A stretch of 32,362 nt of DNA from Alphaproteobacteria bacterium (GTDB lineage Bacteria > Pseudomonadota > Alphaproteobacteria > Micavibrionales > Micavibrionaceae): assembly GCA_027482195.1 (NCBI GenBank), contig JAIXWE010000056.1:1-32362 (forward strand), read 5' to 3'. Position numbers and translations under genes: made by a program. The notes below the pieces were generated by a model, which had not been told where the DNA came from, did not search any database, and was given only the letters and a program-made list of their open reading frames with translations. Below, piece after piece: positions 21,691 to 23,708 of the stretch (positions within the stretch are counted from its first letter, which is position 1; the number at the start of each line of letters is the position of its first letter).

Positions 21691-21831
21691 ATGTTTTTTG
21701 AGTATCTGCTGCGTAAGAGGATCAAGGTGGTTGCGTTTTACGGTTTAGGGGAAAAAGTACAAAAGCATTACGGCGCACCGGCCGCCCGTTTGCTTGGGCG
21801 GTTAAACCGCGAAGGGATGATGAGCTTATGA
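21691..21831 (+). CDS. Candidate 46-aa microprotein, translationally coupled to next gene
   Basis: MFFEYLLRKRIKVVAFYGLGEKVQKHYGAPAARLLGRLNREGMMSL*; stop TGA 21829-21831 overlaps ATG at 21828. Too short for the supplied ORF track. Confidence 0.5.
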   Translation: MFFEYLLRKRIKVVAFYGLGEKVQKHYGAPAARLLGRLNREGMMSL

Positions 21832-22652
21832 GATATTTTCCATCCCTGATGAAAAAATCCCAACCTCTTTTTAAGGCGATGGGGCTTGCCGTGCCTGAGC
21901 CAAAGGATTTCGTGCACGGCAGTCACCTTTTGCTTTTTGTGGATGCGTTCGGAATATGTATCCGCATGGGCGAGGCGCGTAAACTTCCCTATCACGACCG
22001 GGTCTTGGAGCCTTTGAAAACAGTTTCTTTGGGCGGCAAAATGGTTTTTGAAATTCTGCCCATCATTCGTCATTATACACTTGAAGGGGAAGAGCCCGAA
22101 AATCTTTTTCGTTCCGGCCGTGCGGCGCAGTTTTTGCGGCGTGAATTTGCGCGCGAAGGTTTGGATTTCACCGACCCGTTCAACCGCAATATCGGCCTCA
22201 TCCCTTTTCATGATCGCGGAGTTGCGCGCCAGATTTTAGTGGTGCTGGATCGCGGAAATGATTGCATTCTTCCGATTTCAAAGTCAGGAAAAAAACCTTT
22301 ATTCACCAATTTTTTGATTCGTGAAGACGAGGATATGGAGAGCTTACAGCGCTTACGCGAAATTTTTCACCGCAATAAAAACAAGCCCGCACCATCCCCG
22401 CATTTCACCCAATTAAAAGCCTATGAAGATTTGCGCGATGTCATCACCCGCACATGGGGTGAGGGGGAAACACTCCCATCCCCCGATTTTGTCAAAGAAT
22501 TTTGGCCGGCCTGTTTAAAGGCTATGGAAGAAGGCCGTTTGGCACGCATTGCCGATCAACCCGCGCCAAATTATGAATTGATGGATTGTTTTGATGTGCG
22601 TGTGGCGGCATCAAATTACACCGAAACACTGCTCACCCATCTGCGGCCTTGA
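21828..22652 (+). CDS. Hypothetical protein (274 aa)
   Basis: Full ORF MRYFPSLMKKSQPLFKAMGLAVPEPKDFVHGSHLLLFVDAFGICIRMG...; ATGA coupling; no family recognised. Confidence 0.75.
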   Translation: MRYFPSLMKKSQPLFKAMGLAVPEPKDFVHGSHLLLFVDAFGICIRMGEARKLPYHDRVLEPLKTVSLGGKMVFEILPIIRHYTLEGEEPENLFRSGRAAQFLRREFAREGLDFTDPFNRNIGLIPFHDRGVARQILVVLDRGNDCILPISKSGKKPLFTNFLIREDEDMESLQRLREIFHRNKNKPAPSPHFTQLKAYEDLRDVITRTWGEGETLPSPDFVKEFWPACLKAMEEGRLARIADQPAPNYELMDCFDVRVAASNYTETLLTHLRP

Positions 22653-22658
22653 AATTTT

Positions 22659-23588
22659 TTAGCGCGATGCGATGACGGTCGCGGGGCGTGGGGCTGTGTG
22701 CAACCACCATGAATTTGCATTGATGGAAAAGATCGGGCGGTAATGATCGACATCATTCGCATTCGTCATGCGCTTAATTTGATTGTCGAGCAACATCGGC
22801 CCGGATTCGGTGTACACAATCAATACCGCATGCGGAATATTTTTTTGCAAATCTTTGACAATGGATACACGCATGCGGCTGTCGGGCACACCCAACGCGC
22901 GCAGCAATGAATATTTGGCAATGGCGTAATCTTCGCAATCACCGCCGCGCGTGAAAAATTCCATCGGCGTGGCCCAATAATCGGAGCGGCCATAATTATC
23001 ACTGTCTTCAATGTAACGGATATTATTGGCGAAATTATTGACTTCGAGCGCCATCACTTCCAAGGGTTTTCCTTGTAAGTGATAAATTTCATCTTTCCAA
23101 CTTGCGGCCGCTTTTTGAAAGCTGGGTGCGCGCGCCTCTTGGGAAAAACGCGCAAACATACCGTTCCATTTGGTGAAGGCGGATAAATCTTTCGAACGGC
23201 GCTCACCGCTGTTCCACAAGGTGGGGTATTGGCTTAAGCCGCTTACCGGTGCGGCCGATGCAAGCACAAGGGTTGCGGGCACATCGCGCCCACTATTCGC
23301 ATGGGCTTGTGTGGTTGGGAAACTTAAAAGAACGATCAACGCGGATAAACATGCGGCGACACCGCGCAACGCCCATTGGCTGAAAATCGCGGTATAGATG
23401 GCGGAACGTGTCACCGTGCCTTGCTGTACTAAAACGTGGCCCAAAGGTTGGGGATTTGACTTTTGAAGATGCAAGGCCTCGCGCAATTGCGCCGGGGTGA
23501 TGCGGCGTTGTTGCACCAAAATCTCGCCCAAACGATTACGTTCAAGCCGCGCGGATAATACTTTTAAAGATACAGTCGGTTTCATCAT
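22659..23588 (-). CDS. LapG-like (BTLCP) transglutaminase-like cysteine protease fused to N-terminal MshEN-like module
   Basis: GGDCEDYAIAKYSLLRALG (Cys), IPHAVLIVY (His), MLLDNQIKRM (Asp); N-terminal RLGEILVQQRRITPAQLREALHLQ-KSNPQ-PLGHVLVQQGTVTRSAIYTAIFSQ; hydrophobic segment GVAACLSALIVLLSFPTTQAHA. The ORF-track start 23648 is TTG; the true start could be 23588, 23600 (GTG) or 23648. Confidence 0.85.
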   Translation of the reverse strand: MMKPTVSLKVLSARLERNRLGEILVQQRRITPAQLREALHLQKSNPQPLGHVLVQQGTVTRSAIYTAIFSQWALRGVAACLSALIVLLSFPTTQAHANSGRDVPATLVLASAAPVSGLSQYPTLWNSGERRSKDLSAFTKWNGMFARFSQEARAPSFQKAAASWKDEIYHLQGKPLEVMALEVNNFANNIRYIEDSDNYGRSDYWATPMEFFTRGGDCEDYAIAKYSLLRALGVPDSRMRVSIVKDLQKNIPHAVLIVYTESGPMLLDNQIKRMTNANDVDHYRPIFSINANSWWLHTAPRPATVIASR

Positions 23589-23708
23589 CGAATCACGCAC
23601 GTTTGGTCTCTTTGCCTTTCCTTTATTAAACAGCGGAAAGATTGACAAAGATTAAACATTAGTAACAATGTGATCTAATTTCCCGTTTTAAGGGCTTTTA
23701 GGTGTTCC

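Follow-up and report, generated by a model that had tools for sequence, protein, structure and literature searches.

A LapG-like protease with a built-in MshEN-type module in relatives of Micavibrio, and a possible role for c-di-GMP in its export

In the described cases where c-di-GMP controls the release of LapA-type adhesins, the signal is read by a membrane receptor distinct from the protease, typically LapD. The other described control of this kind passes through an unrelated receptor, DvhD (PMC13090378). The locus analysed here, in a window of 32,362 nucleotides (contig JAIXWE010000056.1, positions 1 to 32,362, of the Micavibrionaceae assembly GCA_027482195.1), belongs to an order whose members have small genomes and include epibiotic predators, and in it an MshEN module appears to be built into the protease itself, beside the export signal; what does such a module do there? 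If this head binds c-di-GMP, the protein could be a LapD/LapG switch in one polypeptide, or a second messenger could be acting on a signal peptide, of which we know no earlier case. The fused head, together with the finding of no LapD, suggests another route by which the signalling molecule may time release from a surface or from prey. The question thus bears on how cells of the order hold and release their prey, through a giant adhesin as the likely target.

The open reading frame covers 22659-23648 on the minus strand, like all features given below for this gene, and encodes 329 residues if counted from a TTG start, the numbering used here unless stated. The likely start is either the ATG at 23588, which gives a coding sequence at 22659..23588, or the GTG at 23600, with TTG at 23648 possible too. 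From N to C terminus, the product consists of a 53-residue MshEN-type head, a hydrophobic segment and a LapG-like protease of the BTLCP family, the only LapG-like protease found in this genome. The initial annotation had read it as an MshEN-type module fused to a LapG-like periplasmic protease in one polypeptide, and both parts indeed scored above the cut-offs of their profiles (NF053729 and PF06035). Since the in-frame fused layout is conserved across the order, chance or an annotation artefact was rejected as its origin. A translation start inside the signal segment was also rejected, Met being absent between residue 22 and the protease region and the head being conserved. An AlphaFold2 model, built with 26 orthologues, had a mean pLDDT of 85.6.

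The protease domain (residues 178-318, 22695..23117) aligned with LapG 4fgo in phmmer (1.1e-24), and its PF06035 (Peptidase_C93/BTLCP) core, at residues 201-301 (22746-23048), scored 73.2 bits against a gathering score of 27 (2.6e-20). The modelled domain matched the LapG structures 4fgo and 4u65 in Foldseek. The cut-off of the LapG equivalog NF045674 was missed (103.8 bits vs 320), and by these scores the protease is LapG-like, outside the NCBI LapG equivalog. The catalytic residues proposed initially were all in place: Cys238 in GGDCEDY (22935..22937), His273 in IPHAV (22830..22832) and Asp288 in LLDNQ (22785..22787) fell in columns that were invariant in the 26 orthologues. The D-C-E-D around Cys238 is also the calcium-site motif, and all four of its residues were invariant.

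Residues 39-91 (23376..23534) form the head, in which motif I RLGEILVQQRRITPAQLREALHLQ, the spacer KSNPQ and motif II PLGHVLVQQGTVTRSAIYTAIFSQ follow the 24-5-24 tandem layout that had been recognised by eye. No match to PF05157, the profile suggested for its detection, was listed by the Pfam scan of the reading frame; instead, the head matched NCBIfam NF053729 (cyclic di-GMP-binding domain, MshE-related) with 57.4 bits over a cut-off of 38 (E = 9.4e-16). Against the PDB, phmmer aligned it with PilF 6f8l (3.7e-9) and MshE 5htl. The head was modelled as a four-helix bundle, and Foldseek superposed it on c-di-GMP-bound MshE 5htl, on PilF 8pfa and on 8pdk at 0.7 Å, within a range of about 0.6-1.0 Å, over 53-55 residues, so that the model bore out the predicted fold of the head as it had that of the protease.

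Does the head family keep what is needed to bind c-di-GMP? Among 36 distinct orthologues, with contact positions defined as in PMC5013675, at least 90% constancy was reached at 6 of the 12 c-di-GMP-contact positions vs 2 of the 36 others (Fisher p = 0.0016). The third residue of both motifs (G3), L17 and L21 of motif I and Gln24 of motif II were invariant; Gln24 was retained in 30/36 protease heads in motif I and in 36/36 in motif II. The MshEN ATPases of the same genomes, in contrast, carry Lys and Ser/Thr/Ala in place of both Gln24. Gln24 was thus lost in the ATPase heads and kept in the protease heads, and the conservation of contact positions in the latter is therefore not a by-product of the fold. 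The ATPase concerned, a conserved protein of the GspE/PilB type (loci L113, L116, L118-L125 and L128; G, C and L numbers are our handles for genomes, contigs and loci), may not bind c-di-GMP itself, the contact Gln being lost.

Other positions of the motifs are less conserved. The published relaxed 24-residue binding pattern (PMC5013675) fitted motif I in 24/36 orthologues, motif II in 10/36 and both in 6/36, and neither motif of the window's head. The first Arg of motif II was present in 5/36 orthologues and replaced in 19/36 by Pro, which the relaxed pattern permits, and Gly10 of motif II was kept in 10/36. A single motif I Gly replaced by Arg had been noted in the window's copy; the Arg is there, but the divergence goes further, with Arg at both positions 10 and 11 of motif I and Pro instead of Arg at position 1 of motif II. 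In published work, the GSPII-A MshEN-type domain of PilF no longer bound the ligand once its motif II Arg was lost (PMC12002112), whereas changes of Arg9, Asp12 or Gln32 in MshE had effects of fivefold at most (PMC5013675). Overall, c-di-GMP binding is plausible for the head family, judging by its contact positions. It is least certain for the window's own copy, which, with two Arg at positions 10-11 of motif I, may still bind the ligand.

A survey of the architecture, as the initial annotation had advised, indicated that the MshEN-protease fusion is an order-wide trait of Micavibrio relatives. Within the family and order of the window, 54 of 58 genomes encoded an orthologue of the protein, and 52 of the 54 protease-bearing order genomes carried the head, counting one genome in which the head is out of frame (G001) and one in which it is split by a contig edge (G057). 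The only naturally headless members, G031 and G041, have plain signal peptides. Outside the order, the head was present in 0 of 110 protease-bearing genomes in a survey of the class (385 genomes) and in 0 of 194 in a survey of the phylum (399 genomes), two overlapping samples that together hold about 300 protease-bearing genomes from outside the order. Matches there began at the linker or the protease, which in the examples examined was immediately preceded by an ordinary signal peptide. Among 80 loci from GTDB genomes, only the two order members carried the head. Two side observations concern LapG-like genes: in one order member (G044, contig C9:1087-6502) about six of them, all headless, stand in tandem, and one such gene (L016) comes from a contig that bears the title 'Helicobacter pylori PMSS1 isolate MiH' but looks like a mislabelled environmental bin.

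Between head and protease lies a signal-peptide-like segment, GVAACLSALIVLLSFPTTQAHA (residues 96-117, 23298..23363), so classed from AxA conservation, hydrophobicity and the model; it ends in AxA, and signal peptidase I is predicted to cut behind A117, between 23298 and 23297. This possible cleavage site, already pointed out as an alternative to a retained head, was the best-conserved feature of the segment. An AxA-type site was present in 36/36 orthologues, with Ala at -1 and Ala, Ser, Thr or Val at -3 (one row, shifted by two residues in the alignment, reads ASA), and in the whole stretch that separates Gln24 of motif II from the protease region no residue other than the -1 Ala was invariant. 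The headless order members keep such a site (AYA in G031, and AKA). Position -2 of a signal peptidase I site is usually free, and Arg there, present in 25/36, is unusual. The length of the segment was constant: counted from a conserved Arg/Lys up to its final Ala, it measured 20-24 residues. The highest Kyte-Doolittle mean over 19 residues was 1.53 (sd 0.29) in this segment, vs 2.02 (sd 0.39) in 78 headless relatives. Together, the lower hydrophobicity, the AxA site in all orthologues and its presence in headless members indicate that the head is probably removed on export; by these features the segment would be a weak signal peptide, cleavable by signal peptidase I, and a permanent membrane anchor is less likely. 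The idea of a cytoplasmic sensor stably joined to a periplasmic protease, put forward initially, thus lost ground. With the head probably removed, any control by c-di-GMP would probably act at the export step, while the protease is exported, processed or released, and less probably through a permanent transmembrane switch.

The absence of a recognisable LapD, surmised from the window alone, held in a wider sample: none of the 56 order genomes searched yielded the LapD_MoxY_N domain, which was detected in 3/3 LapG-bearing gammaproteobacterial control genomes. Enzymes of c-di-GMP turnover are present, with 7 GGDEF and 4 EAL matches in the window's genome and several in each order genome.

As for the substrate, the expected co-occurrence with LapA-type adhesins was also recovered. 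LssB/LapB-type T1SS ABC transporters scored above cut-off in 37/38 order genomes, and an adhesin N-terminal family was present in 46/56 genomes, including the window's own (contig C94); genome G027 lacked both the protease and the adhesin module. In the adhesin N-termini that we examined, [VI]EPAAG or a motif close to it occurs, in many cases more than once, and a GFGFQS-like motif comes after it; the window's own adhesin has three PAAG motifs. The experimentally defined cleavage consensus of LapG is [T/A/P]AAG, cut between the two alanines (PMC13090378, PMC6890996). The LapE-, LapB- and LapC-like genes of the window's genome stand together on contig C118, with a short reading frame at the contig edge that may be an adhesin end; beside the same cluster relatives have a reading frame of 2,240-2,860 residues, which in G022 holds RTX, T1SS-143 and von Willebrand A domains. 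It is the N-termini of these large reading frames that make up the family just mentioned. No significant Foldseek match was obtained with the modelled adhesin N-terminus, a low-confidence model (pLDDT 64). Giant adhesins are thus well supported, through their motifs and genomic company, as putative substrates of the protease. Their class, the likely target of the protease, probably includes GMV0107 of M. aeruginosavorus; this protein of 2892 aa adjoins TolC/HlyB/HlyD, and its expression index was 16.9 in the attachment phase vs 0.3 in the attack phase (PMC3189940).

Also in the order, a second LssB-type T1SS (TolC, an ABC transporter with a C39 domain, and HlyD) adjoins a CHASE2 nucleotidyl cyclase in G010 (L193:5184-13493). 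Similar loci occur at L194, L195 and L196 (domains were scanned in L193), and at three of the four a protein with cyclic-nucleotide-binding and EAL domains lies alongside, an architecture that recalls Bd1971, a cAMP-sensing EAL enzyme of Bdellovibrio (PMC6717892).

When neighbouring reading frames were compared by BLAST, the fusion gene was found mostly beside housekeeping genes (hldE, pyruvate kinase, ribonucleotide reductase), and its neighbourhood is therefore of little use as a clue to partners; the protease gene usually does not adjoin a T1SS locus. In the window, a 274-residue reading frame at 21828-22652 on the plus strand is convergent with the fusion gene at a distance of about 7 bases; it had no Pfam match and no relatives in the compared neighbourhoods. 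Two genomes (G037 and G042; L152:6599-7660 and L153:9715-10749, family f2) have a diguanylate cyclase gene adjoining or near the fusion gene. In another (G003, L156:10307-14554), a 1,416-residue RTX protein with tandem cadherin-like repeats is encoded two genes downstream; no AAG site was seen in its N-terminus.

Our preferred reading, to which we give a probability of about 0.4, is that the MshEN head forms the cytoplasmic n-region of the export signal and that binding of c-di-GMP controls how the protease is inserted, processed or released. The head would fold in the cytoplasm, with its helix 4 running straight into the signal helix: in the model this helix, at residues 61-89 when counted from the ATG, bears the last Gln of the c-di-GMP contacts and continues unbroken into the hydrophobic segment at pLDDT 84-97. 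At high c-di-GMP, the ligand would clamp the bundled helices of the head to the membrane end of the weak signal, and the protease would be held back from being inserted, processed or released, leaving the giant adhesin anchored in the outer-membrane channel of its T1SS. At low c-di-GMP, the protease would be exported, and signal peptidase I would free it by cutting at AxA; once free, it would cleave the adhesin at its PAAG sites, and the cell would detach. Of this scheme, sequence shows the fusion and its conservation across the order, the selective constancy of contact positions, the AxA site, the PAAG adhesins with their T1SS and the lack of a recognisable LapD. Ligand binding, cleavage at AxA and the adhesin as substrate are steps that we infer, and the direction of control is borrowed by analogy from LapD/LapG. 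In a narrower form, which we consider rather unlikely, the export signal itself would be ligand-gated, the c-di-GMP-binding n-region deciding whether the protease reaches the periplasm and control of delivery replacing, throughout the order, the hold exerted by LapD. Against the preferred reading in either form, we found no precedent for a signal peptide gated by a ligand through the n-region.

The same continuous helix from head to membrane would also suit an uncleaved, signal-anchored receptor-protease, in which the cytoplasmic head senses and a permanent transmembrane helix relays the signal, for example by dimerisation, to the periplasmic protease. The hydrophobic run of about 17 residues is in line with this, as is the existence of a membrane-anchored BTLCP, DvhG of D. 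vulgaris (PMC13090378). We nevertheless regard it as unlikely, given the universal AxA site and a hydrophobicity below that of the T1SS-adaptor (LapC) anchors of the same genomes, which reached 2.0-2.8 in the nine with a visible helix (it was missed in 5 of 14 windows). Moreover, the linker that follows varies between orthologues and shows little order in the model (pLDDT 41-61), which would make it a poor lever for allostery.

More doubtful still is a head that senses nothing, a degenerate MshEN fold kept for docking or polar targeting, for instance to type IV pilus or T2SS machinery with its own MshEN ATPase. Such an ATPase is conserved in these genomes, some MshEN domains have lost binding (PMC5013675, PMC12002112), and the scarcity of the motif II Arg and Gly10, with the missing motif I Gly10 of the window's copy, would fit; against it, the contact residues G3, L17, L21 and Q24 are the most constant while the rest of the head varies, and Gln24 is kept just where the ATPases lost it. 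Control could, lastly, be exerted in trans on an ordinary periplasmic LapG-like protease by a LapD analogue, the head being incidental. The window's genome does encode a two-TM GGDEF-EAL protein of LapD-like topology (L198), with an unrecognised periplasmic loop of about 130 aa, relatives have GGDEF-EAL proteins of similar length, and DvhD demonstrates that an unrelated receptor can replace LapD (PMC13090378). We think this very unlikely: a LapD_MoxY_N match is absent, the EAL domain of L198 looks catalytically intact and scores best as a phosphodiesterase (119 bits, vs a LapD cut-off of 1020), and a fused head kept across the order would be left unexplained. Control at the export step by way of the fused head remains our preferred reading.

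In the open literature, we found no paper joining a BTLCP with MshEN; LapG and MshEN occur together in four papers, listed as reviews of c-di-GMP, and an earlier report of the fusion may exist. Judged by its genes, the system is a variant of LapA/LapG, with known parts in a new wiring that extends across the order. With the LapA/LapG/LapD systems of P. fluorescens and V. cholerae (FrhA/CraA-LapG-LapD) it shares the BTLCP C-H-D triad and DCED motif, a giant T1SS adhesin whose N-terminal region bears [T/A/P]AAG, a LapBCE-type transporter and c-di-GMP enzymes; it differs in that LapD was not found, that the protease has its own MshEN head before the export signal and that the protease gene usually lies outside the T1SS locus. 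The head resembles the MshEN/GSPII domains of V. cholerae MshE (5htl), T. thermophilus PilF and E. coli NfrB in its two 24-residue motifs, 5-residue spacer, four-helix bundle and conserved G3/L17/L21/Q24, but here only the N-terminal half-domain is present, fused to an exported protease, and the Arg and Gly10 of motif II are mostly lost. HvyA and other alphaproteobacterial BTLCPs (PMC4241560) are homologous at the level of the class and likewise exported with a signal peptide, but they have no head, and the role of HvyA is in capsulation, under the control of the cell cycle. The DvhA/DvhG/DvhD system of Desulfovibrio vulgaris (PMC13090378) also combines a LapG-like protease with a wiring other than LapD, and DvhG has an N-terminal membrane segment; there, however, the protease is described without a cytoplasmic c-di-GMP module, and the receptor, DvhD, is a separate dCache-PAS-HD-GYP protein.
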